DNA of 13,971 nucleotides, from NCBI GenBank assembly GCA_020428895.1, contig JAGQLZ010000037.1, positions 1-13,971 of the forward strand. The letters run 5' to 3'. Position numbers and translations under genes: made by a program. The DNA comes from Candidatus Kaiserbacteria bacterium (GTDB taxonomy: Bacteria; Patescibacteriota; Minisyncoccia; Phycocordibacterales; UBA918). Of the stretch, positions 5,867-13,971 are shown one piece after another (position 1 is the first letter of the stretch; the number at the start of each line of letters is the position of its first letter). Under the pieces are notes generated by a model. The model was not told where the DNA came from, ran no database searches, and saw only the letters and a list, made by a program, of their open reading frames with translations.

Positions 5867-6184
5867 ATGTTTGGAAAAGTGAAAAACTTTGCGATGAAAA
5901 AAATGATTCAATCGCAAATGAAAGACGCTCCACCGGAGCAACAAAAAATGATTATGGAGATGATGGAAAATGATCCAAAACTCTTCGAAAAGATTGCAAA
6001 AGAAATGCAGGCTGAATTAAAGTCTAACGGTAACAATCAAATGGCTGCGGCTATGAAAGTATTGCCAAAATATCAAAGTGAAATTATGGCAGCGATGAGT
6101 CCAGAAAGCCGAGAACAATTAATAAAGATGCAAGGTGGGGGAGCGGCTGGTAAGTTTAATCCTAACGGCTCAATTAGACGCTAA
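5867..6184 (+). CDS. Small methionine-rich helical protein, unrecognised
   Basis: I do not recognise this 105-residue protein. It is predicted soluble and mostly alpha-helical, with 14 methionines (about 13%) spread along the chain. Many sit in amphipathic stretches such as MIMEMMENDPKLFEKIAKEM (residues 28-47). The last 17 or so residues are glycine-rich and basic and look disordered. Methionine-lined amphipathic helices recall hydrophobic-substrate binders such as the SRP M domain, and the NDPKLFEKI stretch is loosely like STI1-type repeats; neither resemblance is strong enough to name a function. It is an independent transcription unit: an extended -10 lies just upstream and a strong intrinsic terminator 27 nt downstream. 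The ATG at 5867 is the first in frame after that -10. Confidence 0.7.
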   Translation: MFGKVKNFAMKKMIQSQMKDAPPEQQKMIMEMMENDPKLFEKIAKEMQAELKSNGNNQMAAAMKVLPKYQSEIMAAMSPESREQLIKMQGGGAAGKFNPNGSIRR

Positions 6185-6210
6185 CGAAAACAATACTCTA
6201 TCAACAGATT

Positions 6211-6245
6211 CTTAAAAAACACCGTTCATGTCGGTGTTTTTTAAG
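6211..6245 (+). terminator. Strong, symmetric intrinsic terminator
   Basis: A perfect 14-bp stem pairs 6211-6224 with 6232-6245 around a 7-nt loop (TTCATGT). The core is ACACCG/CGGTGT flanked by A6 and T6 runs, so it has the U-tract on either strand. It ends the methionine-rich gene. The opposite strand has no gene ending here. Confidence 0.85.
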
Positions 6246-7867: not shown

Positions 7868-9133
7868 ATGGCTAAAACAAAACTGCAAACTGATCTAGAA
7901 GAACGGGGACTGATAGCCCAAACTGGTGGGGGTGATTTATCTGAAGTACTAAGTAAAAAGCGATCAATGTACGTAGGCGTTGACCCAACCGCTGACTCTA
8001 TGCACGTTGGAAATTTGGTGCCAATTATTCTTATGAAGCATCTAAGTGACGCCGGTTATACTCCATACTTGTTGGTTGGTGGTGCTACGGGCATGATTGG
8101 TGACCCAAGAGAAAGCGGAGAAAGACAGCTTTTGGATGATAAAACCCTCAAACACAATTTGGCTTGTATTAAGTCTCAAATGTCTGGTCTTTTAAACAAA
8201 AAAGATTTAAAAGTACTAAATAATGCTGACTGGTTAAGTAAAATAAAACTGCTTGATTTTTTACGTGATGTTGGTAAACACTTCACAGTTAACCAGCTAA
8301 TCAAACGTGACATTATCAAACGTCGATTAGAAACTGACGAAGACAGTATTTCTTATACAGAATTTTCATACTCACTATTACAAGCTTGTGATTACTTACA
8401 TTTACACAAAACATACGGAGTTGATTTACAGATTGGTGGTTCTGACCAGTGGGCAAATATTATTTCTGGAGTAGATTTGATTCGTAGAAAACATGGCAAC
8501 AATGTTTATGCGTTAACCACTCCAATGATTAACGACAAAACTACTGGCAAAAAGTTTGGTAAGTCTGAAGGTAACGCTGTTTGGTTAGATCCTAAAAAAA
8601 CTTCACCGTTAACTTTTTATCAATTTTGGATAAACACCGCTGACGAAAATGTTGAAGAATACTTGCATGTCTTTTCATTCACTCCATTAACCAAATTAAA
8701 AACCATTATCAAGAAACACAAGGCTGAACCACACAAACGTTTGGCACAAAGACAACTGGCTGACGACATGACCACTTTTGTGCACGGTAAACTGGTAGCT
8801 ACTTCTGTAAAGAAAGTGACTGATATACTCTATGGAAAAAAGCCAAGTTCTAATCTTACCAAGACAGAAAAAGCTTTACTGATTTATGAAGCACCTAGTT
8901 TAGCAATATCAAAAACCAATCTTAAAAAAGGTTTGAATATCTCTGAAGTTTTAGTGTTACTTGATTTAGTAAAATCAAAATCTGAAGCTAGAAGGATTAT
9001 TGAAGCCGGTGGTGTATCAGTAGATACTAAACCAGTCGGTATTGATTTTTGTTTTAACGAAAAAACTCTTAAAAAAGATTTAACTTTAGTAAAAAAAGGC
9101 AAAACAATTGGCGTTGTATACAAAAATAATTAA
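7868..9133 (+). CDS. tyrS: Tyrosyl-tRNA synthetase
   Basis: The 421 residues match the usual length of bacterial TyrRS. It charges tRNA-Tyr with tyrosine in the cytoplasm through a tyrosyl-adenylate. The class I signature HIGH appears as HVGN (46-49) after YVGVDPTADS. The tyrosine/ATP-pocket segment GGATGMIGDP (71-80) and QIGGSDQWAN (188-197) are present, and the KMSKS loop reads KFGKS (229-233), the usual TyrRS variant. The C-terminal S4 RNA-binding domain spans about 357-390 (ISEVLVLLDLVKSKSEARRI). All expected parts are present, so it should be active. It appears to be transcribed alone from the upstream AT-rich region. No good terminator follows: a 7-bp inverted repeat at 9170-9176/9194-9200 has a 17-nt loop and no U-tract. 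Confidence 0.97.
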   Translation: MAKTKLQTDLEERGLIAQTGGGDLSEVLSKKRSMYVGVDPTADSMHVGNLVPIILMKHLSDAGYTPYLLVGGATGMIGDPRESGERQLLDDKTLKHNLACIKSQMSGLLNKKDLKVLNNADWLSKIKLLDFLRDVGKHFTVNQLIKRDIIKRRLETDEDSISYTEFSYSLLQACDYLHLHKTYGVDLQIGGSDQWANIISGVDLIRRKHGNNVYALTTPMINDKTTGKKFGKSEGNAVWLDPKKTSPLTFYQFWINTADENVEEYLHVFSFTPLTKLKTIIKKHKAEPHKRLAQRQLADDMTTFVHGKLVATSVKKVTDILYGKKPSSNLTKTEKALLIYEAPSLAISKTNLKKGLNISEVLVLLDLVKSKSEARRIIEAGGVSVDTKPVGIDFCFNEKTLKKDLTLVKKGKTIGVVYKNN

Positions 9134-9192
9134 GATTTATCGCAAGTCTTGATAAAAATTTGTAACAAAAATAGCATTTTTTGAAACATAGC

Positions 9193-9221
9193 TTGCTATT
9201 AAAGTTTAATAAAGCTAATAT
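9193..9221 (+). promoter_or_regulatory. Possible promoter of ychF
   Basis: TTGCTA (9193-9198) and TAATAT (9216-9221) are separated by 17 nt, placing the start point near 9228 and leaving about 9 nt of leader before the ATG at 9237. No Shine-Dalgarno sequence is present. The rest of the 103-bp gap after tyrS is AT-rich without other features. Confidence 0.4.
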
Positions 9222-9236
9222 TCTTTGACTTAATTT

Positions 9237-10337
9237 ATGTCTTTATCTGTTGGAATTGTTGGATTACCGAACGTTGGGAAATCAACGTTGTTTAATGCTT
9301 TAACTAAAAAATCCGTACCGGCTGAAAATTATCCATTTTGTACCATCGATCCATCAGTGGGAATAGTTCCGGTGCCTGACGGTAGATTAAAAACTCTTTC
9401 TGATATTTCAGGCAGTAGTGAAATCATTCCCGCTGTAATTGAATTTACTGACATTGCAGGTTTGGTAAAAGGTGCTTCTGATGGTGAAGGTTTGGGTAAT
9501 AAATTTTTAGCCAATATTCGTGAGACTGACATGATTGCTCAGATGGTCAGAATCTTTGAAGACGATGATATACATCACGTTTCGGGAGTAATTGATCCTA
9601 AAGCTGATATTGAAGTCATCAATCTAGAGTTGGTTATGGCTGATATGGAAACAGTTAGTAAACGACTACATAGTGTCGGTCGTGAAGTAAGGAGTGGTGA
9701 TAAAAAAGCTATTCTTGAAGAGTCAGTTTTAAATAAAATCTTTCCAGTGCTTGAAGCGGGTAACTTGGCAAATAGTATTGATTTGAACAAAGAAGAGTTG
9801 AACGTTGTTAAAGGTTTAAATTTGCTTACCTTAAAACCATTTTTGTATGTCTGCAATAAGAAAAATGGTGCGCATAACTTTGACGAGACCAATGACGAGC
9901 GATGGACTGAATTAGTTGAATTTTTTGAAAATAATAATGCACAGTATGTGTTTGTTGACGCTGGAATGGAACATGAACTGATGGATTTATCGCCCGAAGA
10001 AAAAAATGAATTTCGCCGTGAATATGGTGCTCAGGACAGCGGAGTAGACGCTTTAATTCGAGCTTGTTATGTTCGTCTTGGCTTAATGTCATTCTTTACC
10101 ACCGGTGAAAAAGAAACTCGCGCTTGGACAGTCCCAATTGGTAGTACCGGCCCAGACGCAGGTGCAGCTATTCACACTGATTTTCGTGACAAATACATTC
10201 GAGCTCATGTAGTTACTTTTGATGACTTAGTTGAATGTGGTTCATTAAAACAAGCTAGAGATGAAGGAAAGCTTCGTACAGAGGGCAGGGAATACATAGT
10301 GAAAGATGGTGACGTGATTGAATTCTTACATTCGTAA
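9237..10337 (+). CDS. ychF: Ribosome-associated ATPase YchF (Obg-like, OLA1 family)
   Basis: The 366-residue protein has the normal YchF length and order: a P-loop domain with G1 GLPNVGKST (9-17) and G3 DIAGL (72-76), an inserted coiled-coil region (about 125-190), and a C-terminal TGS domain (about 283-366) with the family signatures GEKETRAWT, IHTDF and DGDVIEF. The family hydrolyses ATP rather than GTP and associates with ribosomes and stress responses. The region corresponding to the specificity motif, normally Asn-x-x-Glu, reads NKKN here (207-210), lacking the glutamate. The sequencing frame around it is intact. It appears to be a single-gene unit followed directly by the promoter of a small RNA gene on the same strand. 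Confidence 0.95.
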   Translation: MSLSVGIVGLPNVGKSTLFNALTKKSVPAENYPFCTIDPSVGIVPVPDGRLKTLSDISGSSEIIPAVIEFTDIAGLVKGASDGEGLGNKFLANIRETDMIAQMVRIFEDDDIHHVSGVIDPKADIEVINLELVMADMETVSKRLHSVGREVRSGDKKAILEESVLNKIFPVLEAGNLANSIDLNKEELNVVKGLNLLTLKPFLYVCNKKNGAHNFDETNDERWTELVEFFENNNAQYVFVDAGMEHELMDLSPEEKNEFRREYGAQDSGVDALIRACYVRLGLMSFFTTGEKETRAWTVPIGSTGPDAGAAIHTDFRDKYIRAHVVTFDDLVECGSLKQARDEGKLRTEGREYIVKDGDVIEFLHS

Positions 10338-10341
10338 ACTA

Positions 10342-10369
10342 TTGACATGTTTTTAATCAGTGATATAAA
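10342..10369 (+). promoter_or_regulatory. Strong sigma-70-type promoter of the intergenic RNA
   Basis: A perfect -35 TTGACA (10342-10347), a 16-nt spacer and TATAAA (10364-10369), with the extended -10 TG at 10361-10362. It starts only 5 nt after the ychF stop codon and is the best promoter in the window. The predicted start point is near 10376. No protein gene on this strand follows for 600 bp, so it should serve the structured RNA. Confidence 0.7.
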
Positions 10370-10379
10370 TCACTGATTA
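10354..10379. repeat. Perfect 11-bp inverted repeat centred on the -10 box
   Basis: TAATCAGTGAT (10354-10364) and ATCACTGATTA (10369-10379) are exact reverse complements with 4 bp (ATAA) between. The -10 hexamer occupies 10364-10369, so the dyad overlaps the promoter core and the start point. It could be an operator for a dimeric repressor. If ychF transcripts read through, it would form an RNA hairpin, but no U-tract follows on the plus strand. Confidence 0.75.
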
Positions 10380-10600
10380 GCGTCACTGTCGAGTGACGCA
10401 GGGGATGTTGGGATATACCGTTCTTTACTCAACATTCTTAAATTTGTACAAAGATGCCGTGTGTCGTCAGCACACTAAGGGGTCGGCACTTAGTCTCGAG
10501 CCGTACTGCCAAATGTCGAGTATGAGGGCAAGTTAGGAACTGACAAACCTTAAGCACCCTCATTACAATACGGCCTCGCTACACAGCGAGGCCGCCTTTT
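10376..10600 (+). ncRNA. Putative independent structured small RNA (about 225 nt), family not recognised
   Basis: It is bounded by a strong promoter and an intrinsic terminator and is visibly richer in G+C than the flanking gaps. Helices, in order: H1, 8 bp 10380-10387/10392-10399 with loop GTCG at the 5' end; H2, 8 bp 10403-10410/10430-10437 with one G-U and a 19-nt loop; H3, GTGTG/CACAC 10459-10463/10471-10475 inside TGCC/GGCA 10455-10458/10485-10488; H4, TAAG/CTTA 10476-10479/10489-10492, which would form an H-type pseudoknot with the TGCC/GGCA stem; H5, CTCGA/TCGAG 10495-10499/10516-10520; H6, GCCGTA/TACGGC 10500-10505/10569-10574, whose 5' strand lies in the H5 loop (second pseudoknot) and which competes with the terminator; H7, ATGAGGG/CCCTCAT 10522-10528/10557-10563. 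No signatures of tmRNA, RNase P RNA, SRP RNA or 5S rRNA are seen. The ends are estimates. Confidence 0.6.
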
Positions 10601-10605
10601 ATTTT
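10571..10605 (+). terminator. Intrinsic terminator of the small RNA
   Basis: A perfect 10-bp G+C-rich stem (CGGCCTCGCT 10571-10580 with AGCGAGGCCG 10585-10594, loop ACAC) is followed by CC and a T4-A-T4 tract. The tail covers the stop codon of the convergent DUF3467-like gene. The opposite strand lacks a T-run after the stem, so it terminates mainly plus-strand transcription. Confidence 0.85.
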
Positions 10606-10873
10606 AACTTCCTTCCATCGGTGGATTGGCTCTTTGGACCGGACTAATTACATTAGGATTCCACTCTGCAGTAATTTCTCCATGCTTCTTTTCGTATTCA
10701 ATTATTTCGTGGGCTAGATACTGCTGTAAGCGCTTGATATGGGCTGGTGTTAAAGCATAAGTTTGTAACTCAGAACCTGAACTGATACCGAGCACAAAGT
10801 ATTCTGGAGTATGTCCAACTTTTATGTTCTCGATAAAAATTTTCTGCGACTGTTTTAAATCTTCAAGTTTCAT
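10604..10873 (-). CDS. DUF3467-like small protein
   Basis: The 89-residue soluble protein resembles the DUF3467 family as I remember it. The shared features are an N-terminal strand with a residue pattern like NIKVGHTPEYFVLGI (16-30), the segment ALTPAHIKRLQQYL (40-53, family pattern SPEHAKRL) and YEKKHGEI (60-67, family pattern YExxFGEI). The family has no established function to my knowledge. The C-terminal 20 residues are proline-rich and probably flexible. The ATG at 10873 lies 8 nt after an extended -10, with no Shine-Dalgarno sequence. Its stop codon falls in the U-tract of the convergent small RNA's terminator, so the two transcripts meet tail to tail with little or no overlap. The promoter is divergent from that of leuS. 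Confidence 0.75.
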   Translation of the reverse strand: MKLEDLKQSQKIFIENIKVGHTPEYFVLGISSGSELQTYALTPAHIKRLQQYLAHEIIEYEKKHGEITAEWNPNVISPVQRANPPMEGS

Positions 10874-10881
10874 ATTTGGCT

Positions 10882-10909
10882 ATTGTATCACTATCAATTT
10901 TTTTACCAA
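10882..10909 (-). promoter_or_regulatory. Promoter of the DUF3467-like gene, leaderless geometry
   Basis: On the minus strand: TTGGTA (10909 to 10904), a 16-nt spacer, and TACAAT (10887 to 10882) with an extended -10 TG. Only 8 nt separate the hexamer from the ATG at 10873, predicting a leader of about 2 nt. Confidence 0.55.
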
Positions 10910-10920
10910 ATTTAACAAAT

Positions 10921-10949
10921 TTGACTAATAATATGTGTGATGCATAATA
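10921..10949 (+). promoter_or_regulatory. Possible promoter of leuS
   Basis: TTGACT (10921-10926) and ATAATA (10944-10949; CATAAT with a 16-nt spacer is equivalent) are 17 nt apart. The leader would be about 25 nt. The only purine-rich stretch before the ATG, GGGG at 10976-10979, is one base from the start codon and too close for normal Shine-Dalgarno pairing. Confidence 0.45.
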
Positions 10950-10980
10950 AACATTATTTTACAAAGTCAATCGATGGGGT

Positions 10981-13395
10981 ATGCACAAAAAATTTGATCA
11001 CAAAGGGTTTGAAAAAAAGTGGCAAGAGCAGTGGCAGAAAGACAATCTGTATAAGGCTGGTGATCGAGATAAATCAAAAAGTAAAGAATACGTTTTGGTT
11101 GAACTACCATACCCATCTGGCAATCTTCATATAGGACACTGGTACGCATTTGCTGTTCCCGATATCTATGTACGCTACAGGCGCATGAATGGCGTTCAGG
11201 TAGTTTATCCGATGGGTTTTGATGCATTCGGTCTGCCAGCTGAAAACGCCGCCATAAAGCGCAATCTAAATCCACGAGAGTGGACTGAAGGAAATATCGA
11301 ATACATGAAAGGTCAGTTGGCTAGTATGGGTAACGCTTTCTCTTGGGATAAAACTGCTTCTACCATTGATCCGAATTATTATAAATGGACACAGTGGATG
11401 TTTACCCAATTTTTTGAAAATAACATCGCTTATCGTGGTAAAGGAATTGTAAATTGGTGTCCGGGTTGTAATACTGTAATTGCTAACGAACAAGTACTAA
11501 GTGACGGTACGTGTGAGCGTTGTAGTAACGAAATTGAAAAACGTGAAATGCCACAATGGATGTTGCGAATCACTAACTACGCTGATCGCTTAGTAGATGA
11601 TCTTGATGATTTGAATTGGCCAGAACATATCAAAGATTCTCAACGTAACTGGATTGGACGAAGTAAAGGAGCAGAAATTTCCTTTAAGCTTTCAACTGGT
11701 GATGATATTACCGTCTTTACCACTAGACCGGACACGCTCTTTGGTGCCACTTATGTGGTTTTAGCTCCTGAGCATAAGTTAATTACTGATAATAAAGAGA
11801 AAATTAGTAACTGGTCTGAAGTTGAGGCGTATATAAAAACCACCGCTAAAAAAGACGAACAAGATCGTTTGAATGACACTAAAGAAAAGACTGGTGTGAA
11901 GCTAGAAGGTGTTACCGCTATCAATCCAGCCAATAATGAAGAAATTCCTGTTTACATTGCTGACTATGTACTTGCTTCATACGGAACCGGCGCCATCATG
12001 GCGGTGCCAGCTCACGATGAACGAGATTTTGCTTTTGCTGAAAAGTTCGAAATTAACATCATAACAGTGGTTAGAGCTAAGGGTGAGTCATCTGCTTCTA
12101 ATGAAAAGAACGAGAAAAGTATTTTGTTTACTGACAGTGGTGAACTAATTAACTCTGGTGAGTTTGATGGAATGGACTCCGAAGAAGCTAAGGTCGCCAT
12201 CACTGAAAAAGTGGGTGGTAAATTGACCAACACCTATCGCTTGAGAGATTGGTCTGTTGGCCGTCAGCGTTACTGGGGAGTCCCGATTCCAATTGTTTAT
12301 GATCCGGAAGGGAAGCCTCATATTGTACCGAAAGAACACCTGCCGTGGACACTGCCTGAGGATGTTGATTTTCGACCAACTGGGGAAGCACCATTAGCTA
12401 AATCTGCTGAACTCAAAAAACGAACTGAAGAAATCTTTGGTAAAGGTTGGACACCAGAAGTGGAGACCATGGATACGTTTGTAGATTCTTCATGGTATTT
12501 CTTGCGTTACTTGGACAATGCTAACGATGAAGTATTTACGTCACTGGATGTTCAAAAAGACTGGATGCCAATAGACATTTATTTTGGTGGTGCAGAACAC
12601 ACCACTATGCACTTGCTTTACTCACGATTTTGGCAGAAAGCTTTATTTGATCTTGGTTTAGTAAATGTTCAAGAACCGTATCAAAGACGAATTAACCGTG
12701 GACTAATTCTTGGTCCAGACGGAAACAAAATGAGTAAGAGCAAAGGCAACGTTATTGATCCTGATGAACAGGTAGCTAGAGTTGGTTCAGATACCGTTAA
12801 AATGTATCTAGCTTTTATGGGACCTTATGGTGAAGTGTCTAACTATCCGTGGGATATGGGTGGTATCGCTGGATTACATCGCTTCCTAGAACGAGTTAAT
12901 GGTTTAAGCGAACACATTTCTGAAACAGAACCTAAAGAAATAACAAAACTACTTCACAAAACAATTAAAAAGGTGAGTGAAGATATTCCAGAGTTTAAAT
13001 TTAATACTGCAATCAGTGCCTTGATGGTATTTGTTAATTCAGTTGAAAAGCAATCTCTTACAAAAGAAAGTTACGATGCATTTTTGCGTTTGTTGGCACC
13101 GTTTGCTCCACACTTAACTGAAGAATTGTGGGCGCTGGCTGGAAATTCTGGCAGTGTTCACACTGCCGAATTTCCAGCCTATGACAAAACTTTGTCGAAA
13201 GATGAAACTGTCACAATCGGTGTCCAGATTAATGGAAAATTACGCGGTGACATCACTTTGTCTCCAGAAGCAACCAAAGACGAGGCTTTAGACGCAGTGA
13301 TAACCAAGCCAAGATTTGCCCCTTACTTAACTGCAAAACCAGCAAAAGTTATCTACGTACCGGGTCGAATTCTTAATTTAATAGTAAATGATTAA
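10981..13395 (+). CDS. leuS: Leucyl-tRNA synthetase
   Basis: The 804-residue protein is a complete, somewhat short bacterial LeuRS (usual length about 860). It charges tRNA-Leu and hydrolyses mischarged products. Visible parts: PYPSGNLHIGH with the HIGH motif at 50-53; a zinc-ribbon module with Cys160/Cys163 and Cys178/Cys181; the CP1 editing domain with TTRPDTLFG (247-255) and GTGAIMAVPAHDERD (335-349), containing the conserved Asp of the editing site; the catalytic segment MDTFVDSSWYFLRY (497-510); KMSKS at 583-587; the anticodon-binding helical domain; and the C-terminal domain with VQINGKLRG. The second zinc-binding insert common in bacterial LeuRS before the MDTFVDSSW segment lacks cysteines here. 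ATG at 10981 gives the standard N-terminus; another ATG at 10974 is out of frame. Confidence 0.97.
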   Translation: MHKKFDHKGFEKKWQEQWQKDNLYKAGDRDKSKSKEYVLVELPYPSGNLHIGHWYAFAVPDIYVRYRRMNGVQVVYPMGFDAFGLPAENAAIKRNLNPREWTEGNIEYMKGQLASMGNAFSWDKTASTIDPNYYKWTQWMFTQFFENNIAYRGKGIVNWCPGCNTVIANEQVLSDGTCERCSNEIEKREMPQWMLRITNYADRLVDDLDDLNWPEHIKDSQRNWIGRSKGAEISFKLSTGDDITVFTTRPDTLFGATYVVLAPEHKLITDNKEKISNWSEVEAYIKTTAKKDEQDRLNDTKEKTGVKLEGVTAINPANNEEIPVYIADYVLASYGTGAIMAVPAHDERDFAFAEKFEINIITVVRAKGESSASNEKNEKSILFTDSGELINSGEFDGMDSEEAKVAITEKVGGKLTNTYRLRDWSVGRQRYWGVPIPIVYDPEGKPHIVPKEHLPWTLPEDVDFRPTGEAPLAKSAELKKRTEEIFGKGWTPEVETMDTFVDSSWYFLRYLDNANDEVFTSLDVQKDWMPIDIYFGGAEHTTMHLLYSRFWQKALFDLGLVNVQEPYQRRINRGLILGPDGNKMSKSKGNVIDPDEQVARVGSDTVKMYLAFMGPYGEVSNYPWDMGGIAGLHRFLERVNGLSEHISETEPKEITKLLHKTIKKVSEDIPEFKFNTAISALMVFVNSVEKQSLTKESYDAFLRLLAPFAPHLTEELWALAGNSGSVHTAEFPAYDKTLSKDETVTIGVQINGKLRGDITLSPEATKDEALDAVITKPRFAPYLTAKPAKVIYVPGRILNLIVND

Positions 13396-13483: not shown

Positions 13484-13971
13484 ATGATTACATTTAAACC
13501 TAAGCAGGTTACAAAAAAACTATTGAGTGCACTACCGGAGCGAGCTCGGGATGTGTTAGAGAAACGTTATGGACTTGGTCCAGACGGTGAATCTTACACC
13601 CTTGAAGCCATCGGTCAGTCTTACGGTATTACCCGTGAACGAGTTCGACAGATTGAAAACCACGGTATTCAGTCGATTCAGAAGTCAAAAGTCTATACTG
13701 AATTTGAAGAACTATTTAATGAACTCAAATCACACATTGAACAACTTGGTGGTGGTATTATCGCTGAACACGTTCTTCTTGATGAGTTAAGTAGTGATGC
13801 CTCTACCAAAAATCACCTATACTTCCTACTTGTAGTAGGTGATGTTTTCTATAAAGGTAAAGAAAACGGACAATACAAACATCGTTGGTTTACAGAAAAG
13901 AAAGTGGCTGAGCTGGTAGAAAAAGGATTACGAAATGTTTACCAAAGTCTCGATCGTGATGAATTGGTAGA
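13484..13971 (+). CDS. Sigma-70 region 4 / HARE-HTH fusion protein, putative transcription factor (3' end beyond window)
   Basis: At least 162 residues are encoded, with no stop before the window edge. Residues about 14-66 form a sigma-70 region 4 helix-turn-helix: LPERARDVLEKRYGL, then EAIGQSYGITRERVRQIENHG with the classic recognition-helix signature T-R-E-R-V-R-Q-I-E. Residues about 76-140 resemble a HARE-HTH winged-helix domain, as in the N-terminal domain of the RNA polymerase delta subunit (the segment around GGGIIAEHVLLDEL and the later FYKGKENGQYKHRWF). There is no room for sigma region 2, so it cannot act as a complete sigma factor from what is visible. A DNA-binding regulator or RNA-polymerase accessory factor is more likely. 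It has its own promoter and a Shine-Dalgarno sequence. The rest of the protein is outside the window. Confidence 0.8.
   Translation, partial: MITFKPKQVTKKLLSALPERARDVLEKRYGLGPDGESYTLEAIGQSYGITRERVRQIENHGIQSIQKSKVYTEFEELFNELKSHIEQLGGGIIAEHVLLDELSSDASTKNHLYFLLVVGDVFYKGKENGQYKHRWFTEKKVAELVEKGLRNVYQSLDRDELV

Follow-up and report, generated by a model that had tools for sequence, protein, structure and literature searches.

The stretch of plus-strand DNA at positions 10376–10600, between ychF and a convergent DUF3467-like gene, can tentatively be read as a species-specific spacer that is transcribed at least as the 3′ tail of ychF; we give this reading close to, though just short of, an even chance. 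It lies in a 13,971-nt stretch of Candidatus Kaiserbacteria DNA that was analyzed at full length and is hereafter called the window. A preliminary description had taken the stretch for an autonomous structured RNA gene. Overall, what that description observed was partly confirmed and what it made of the observations was partly supported. The spacer reading is favored by an intrinsic terminator that is common at this junction in the genus, by upstream sequence that varies from genome to genome, and by a middle part that folds like shuffled sequence.

The ychF open reading frame (9237–10337, plus strand) encodes a YchF-type GTPase with Pfam matches to YchF-GTPase_C and MMR_HSR1. The convergent neighbor (10604–10873, minus strand, 89 aa) matches PF11950 with 23.3 bits, slightly below the 25-bit cut-off. 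The next gene on the ychF strand is leuS, which starts at 10981. The earlier statement that no gene on this strand follows for 600 bp holds when counted from 10376 (605 nt to the leuS start) and fails when counted from 10600 (just 380 nt). The source genome assembly amounts to 671 kb in 105 contigs and is 80% complete. Among the matches listed (80 loci), the closest ychF relative in a named genome belongs to a Candidatus Kaiserbacteria assembly and is 70% identical. Full-length YchF proteins were 64–75% identical, the nearest being at 75%, and two partial ones reached 79 and 81%. Close to the start of an ORF at 13484–13969 lies a sigma-70 region 4 domain; the ORF runs past the window end, and its part within the window has no other Pfam match.

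The terminator reported earlier is present, with a 10-bp stem at 10571–10594 (z −7.2) and a T-rich tail, the whole spanning 10571–10603 on the plus strand. A lax consensus scan of positions 9000–11100 (2.1 kb) returned one terminator, compared to 1.3 expected by chance, and no terminator-like site upstream of 10571. The gene order was then compared in relatives. Of the 38 genomes of the genus, 31, the source genome included, contain a detectable ychF, and the comparison covered 30 ychF loci, one from the source and 29 from relatives. A convergent DUF3467 gene lies downstream of ychF in 20 of the 29 relative loci (21 of 30 with the window); in the remaining nine, one of which is at a contig end, it was not found within the retrieved DNA. 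The whole spacer is 5–73 nt long in seven of these 20 relatives, compared to ~230 nt from the ychF stop codon to the terminator in the window, and 148–1269 nt long in the other 13. In loci L005–L033 the slot holds short ORFs that differ by genome, some with an N-terminus that looks signal-like by eye. Of the 21 spacers, the window's included, 13 have a terminator no more than 45 nt from the DUF3467 end, two very short spacers being left unscanned and scored as misses. Twelve of the 20 relatives thus have the arrangement seen here, a hairpin and T-run beside the 3′ end of DUF3467. The 13 terminators in the 19 scanned spacers compare with a mean of 0.2 and a maximum of 1 in 40 rounds of shuffling. 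The spacer of the window itself had no match better than E 0.055 in the retrieved loci at the DNA level (121 loci) or E 0.03 after translation (loci L001–L033). We conclude that the terminator is a property of the ychF/DUF3467 junction, that relatives do not share the sequence upstream of it, and that the spacer is a small variable cargo site in the genus. Since the terminator occurs at the same junction in relatives that do not have the element, its presence here does not point to an autonomous RNA.

The stable hairpin that had been placed at the expected 5′ end was recovered at 10380–10399 (8 bp; z −4.1, 0/200 shuffles). Back to back with it stands another at 10400–10440 (z −3.2, 1/200 shuffles as stable), the third of three tandem hairpins that span 10354–10440 on the plus strand; the first of them is the inverted repeat described below. 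The full 227 nt proved more stable than its shuffled versions (z −3.59, 0/200; z −3.8, 0/100 in a repeat run), and the 5′ piece 10376–10440 reached z −5.55. Without the terminator the element scored z −1.4 (5/100 shuffles), and when the first 5′ hairpin was removed as well the value was shuffle-like, z −0.59. The G+C-rich middle (10440–10569, 130 nt, G+C 0.469), for which no homologue was detected, had no excess stability (z −0.03, with 48/100 shuffles as stable; z −0.14, with 85/200). It is thus the 5′ hairpins, together with the terminator, that make the element fold better than its shuffles. At least six additional possible helices had been proposed; the hairpin at 10400–10440 is above chance, another at 10515–10570 is marginal (z −2.1, 6/200 shuffles as stable), and most of the proposed helices are at the level of random sequence with the same composition. 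A pairing of positions 10500–10508 with 10566–10574 would be antiterminator-like, since it would occupy the 5′ side of the terminator stem. As a control, 56 windows of 200 nt on the plus strand were folded with 20 shuffles each, giving a mean z of −0.56 (sd 1.48). Two that overlap the element scored −3.67 and −3.26, and one within leuS (at 13001) scored −5.25, so the z value of the whole element is by itself no mark of an RNA gene. Structure predicted from a single sequence is no evidence for functional structure (PMC8250186). With a terminator typical of the junction and a remainder that, once the first 5′ hairpin is also taken away, folds as shuffled sequence does, an autonomous structured RNA is no more than a candidate.

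Searches for homologues covered overlapping sets of genomes. BLASTN recovered the stretch's own copy and one match of 27–28 nt among 146 relatives, and likewise among 49 genomes of the family; only the own copy among 397 genomes of the order at a limit of E 0.005; and the own copy plus two matches of 27–31 nt among 379 genomes of the phylum. Single-sequence covariance models found nothing besides the own copy in the 397 order genomes (model R1), in the 38 genus genomes (model R2) or in 56 of 120 loci. The 27–28-nt match, which adjoins a tRNA-Ser gene in a congener (G032, locus L002), was rejected: its E values of 0.008 and 0.006 per genome (146 and 49 genomes, respectively) are about what chance yields over such numbers, it scored E 0.055 in short-word BLASTN against 121 loci, and it fell outside the limit of the order-level search. 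The two phylum-level matches (E 1.6e-4 and 5.5e-4 per genome, which for 379 genomes amounts to ~0.06 and 0.2 expected) overlap in the window, at 10409–10439 and 10424–10450. They sit within ORFs 410 and 455 aa long and were taken as probable chance matches. Tandem guide arrays were also considered. TIGR-Tas systems are reported to be RNA-guided, in a study that mentions Patescibacteria; the stretch holds two-copy repeats only, and this candidate was set aside. Conservation in ychF-downstream regions had been named beforehand as a test, its absence counting against a functional RNA, and no homologue was found in these searches. With the nearest full-length YchF just 75% identical, a fast-evolving RNA may escape both BLASTN and single-sequence models, so the lack of homologues would be weak evidence against function, yet it offers no comparative support.

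The near-consensus promoter noted right after ychF was recovered as a promoter-like site on the plus strand. It consists of TTGACA (10342–10347), 16 nt and TATAAA (10364–10369), begins 4 nt past the ychF stop codon, and agrees with the consensus in 11 of 12 letters, its −10 element having no final T. It is the sole 11/12 site in the whole window (both strands, spacers of 15–19 nt), where composition predicts ~0.84 per window and 0.0012 per given 40 nt. A consensus scan of 9000–11100 gave 10 promoter-like sites compared to 6.9 expected; the site after ychF was not among them because the scan requires the final T of the −10 element. The promoter-like site overlaps a perfect 11-bp inverted repeat with a 4-nt loop (10354–10379, plus strand; z −7.0), and the −10 element spans the loop. 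Judged from its sequence, this palindrome may be operator-like in DNA, a predicted function, or may form a hairpin in the ychF 3′ tail. No second copy was found in the source genome or in 37 congeners with up to two mismatches allowed. A weaker copy of its half-site pattern, with two mismatches, is seen at 10370–10389.

The G+C content of the stretch, 0.489, is higher than in the surrounding gaps, as had been pointed out: six other gaps measured 0.20–0.35, and the whole window 0.372. The stretch is also longer than the other gaps measured. Among 2750 positions of a 225-nt window, 13 reach 0.489, and these fall in two places, which makes the stretch equal to the richest parts of the window. At four other loci of the source genome, 225-nt windows had a mean G+C of 0.40 and a 95th percentile of 0.54. 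According to PMC8632094, high G+C in long intergenic regions is a recognized sign of structured RNAs. Like the candidates screened there, the stretch is rich in G+C and exceeds in length the other gaps measured. It differs from them in that comparative sequence analysis was applied there, while the stretch has no comparative support. The argument from G+C is weakened by the tmRNA genes of the source genome, which are no more G+C-rich than their flanks (0.418 and 0.427; 0.464 and 0.466).

Genes for intergenic bacterial sRNAs have a promoter, a 5′ hairpin and an intrinsic terminator. The stretch is like them in the order of its parts, in its length of ~225 nt and in a G+C content above that of other gaps; it differs in the lack of detected conservation and of a folding signal in the middle, and in being known from sequence alone. 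The chief rival to the spacer reading, although we consider it unlikely, is an orphan sRNA transcribed from a promoter of its own that an operator may control. Such a gene would start near 10376, would be controlled by a dimeric regulator bound to the −10 palindrome and would end at 10600. Its product, stabilized by the 5′ hairpins, would act by base pairing or by binding a protein, and to this part we assign the same low probability jointly with the gene itself. The promoter-like site, palindrome, 5′ hairpins, terminator and G+C enrichment do come in the proper order, and the whole-length fold is better than that of shuffles (z −3.6 to −3.8). Several points speak directly against the spacer reading: a spacer that is simply decaying would be expected to be rich in A+T, a promoter-like site is improbable at this place by composition and has a palindrome on top of it, and at 64–75% YchF identity a divergent sRNA could escape detection. 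It is the G+C content, the promoter-like site and the palindrome that keep the sRNA reading alive. Set against it are the missing homologue, the middle without a folding signal, the incomplete −10 element, a terminator that the junction would have even without an sRNA, and tmRNA genes that do not stand out from their flanks in G+C. A more specific proposal, a lineage-specific RNA gene of ~225 nt outside the described families, with a palindromic-operator promoter and placed in a variable cargo slot ahead of the shared terminator, appears improbable.

A piece of foreign or mobile DNA, or a locally duplicated segment, might have landed in this variable slot and be as yet functionless. We regard this as rather improbable. 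What the spacer contains varies between the 20 relatives that have the DUF3467 neighbor, several of which carry short ORFs there, and the G+C of the stretch is far from that of local gaps. In addition, a repeat search found an imperfect 15-nt direct repeat (13/15) on the plus strand, at 10322–10336 in the ychF 3′ end and at 10434–10448, that encloses the promoter-like site with the three hairpins and is a possible footprint of insertion or duplication. When the 301-nt region was shuffled 300 times, five shuffles contained an equally good repeat. Against an insertion, the two copies of the direct repeat are not identical, and no terminal inverted repeat that would mark an inserted piece was recognized. 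The stretch had no match in 72,556 plasmid records and only a 28-nt match (E 0.07) in 50,697 phage records, and three exact probes of 20–22 nt found nothing in viral contigs, which is a weak test.

Translation of the stretch is very unlikely. The candidate would be an mRNA for a protein of 43–47 aa that starts just past the first 5′ hairpin, and an open frame is indeed present at 10393–10536 on the plus strand (47 aa from GTG 10393, 43 aa from ATG 10402). Small ORFs occupy the same slot in some relatives, and the phylum-level match in G557 lies in the 410-aa ORF, whose reading frame matches, by eye, the frame of the 47-aa ORF at its end. With a codon table trained on nine window genes, 82 in-frame segments averaged 0.25 per codon, with a 5th percentile of −0.04, and out-of-frame segments averaged −0.35; this ORF, at −0.40, lies below that percentile. 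The DUF3467 gene, which was outside the training set, scored 0.14. This control is imperfect: plausible small ORFs in the spacers of relatives had scores from 0.29 down to −0.31 (L033, −0.265; L006, −0.197; L013, −0.306), so a low codon score does not rule out a gene. Of Markov sequences, 6% contain a frame this long by chance, and the best non-self match of the 47-aa frame at the protein level in loci L001–L033 had E 0.51. Judging by these scores, the ORF is probably non-coding.

The stretch had been called unassigned, and this was borne out. The Rfam scan of the window gave no match at E≤5, ARAGORN found neither tRNA nor tmRNA in it, and no covariance match to RNase P RNA or small bacterial SRP RNA was obtained there. 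When 341 nt were scanned alone, five unconvincing Rfam matches, short or weak, appeared in the element and at its edges and were rejected; the lowest E value (0.24) was that of CC0196, which aligned over the terminator. A weak tmRNA match at 6172–6240 (8.3 bits, E 0.10) lies outside the element. Elsewhere in the source genome there are two tmRNA genes, on contigs C2 and C5 (L035, 1501–1892; L036, 1503–1894). Their tag peptides differ, AKKNILSPYAKSFGFAPAFA and ANKSVPSPYANAFGFAPAVA; either the genome truly has two tmRNAs or the bin contains another organism as well. On another contig a match to the RNase P RNA model (54.3 bits, E 1.7e-16, below the 100-bit cut-off) is probably that RNA. Small bacterial SRP RNA was not found in the source genome, which is 80% complete. 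The 6S RNA model found nothing in the window and nothing above the Rfam cut-off in the 38 genus genomes, so this model may be blind in the genus; a weak 6S match in G028 (E 0.12, 16.3 bits) was dropped after an Rfam scan of the locus showed just a nearby tRNA. These gaps leave some room for a very divergent housekeeping RNA, 6S or SRP, yet such an RNA should be recognizable in congeners, where nothing was found, and with tmRNA and probable RNase P RNA genes located elsewhere and no convincing Rfam match here we consider it extremely unlikely.

In the spacer reading, the slot between ychF and the junction terminator would here be filled by ~200 nt, consisting of three tandem 5′ hairpins and the G+C-rich middle. 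RNA polymerase leaving ychF, which shows no terminator before 10571, is expected to read through into the stretch, and it would stop at 10571–10600. The tandem hairpins could then protect the end of the ychF mRNA. Less surely, some transcripts may start at the promoter-like site in the palindrome and yield an orphan transcript of ~225 nt, which would have no conserved structure or known role. Among the titles listed in literature searches, none dealt with an RNA downstream of ychF. The case carries a caution: a promoter, a hairpin and a terminator in a row can mimic an RNA gene where a junction terminator exists anyway. Should the transcript exist, it would give a Patescibacterium an orphan small RNA.
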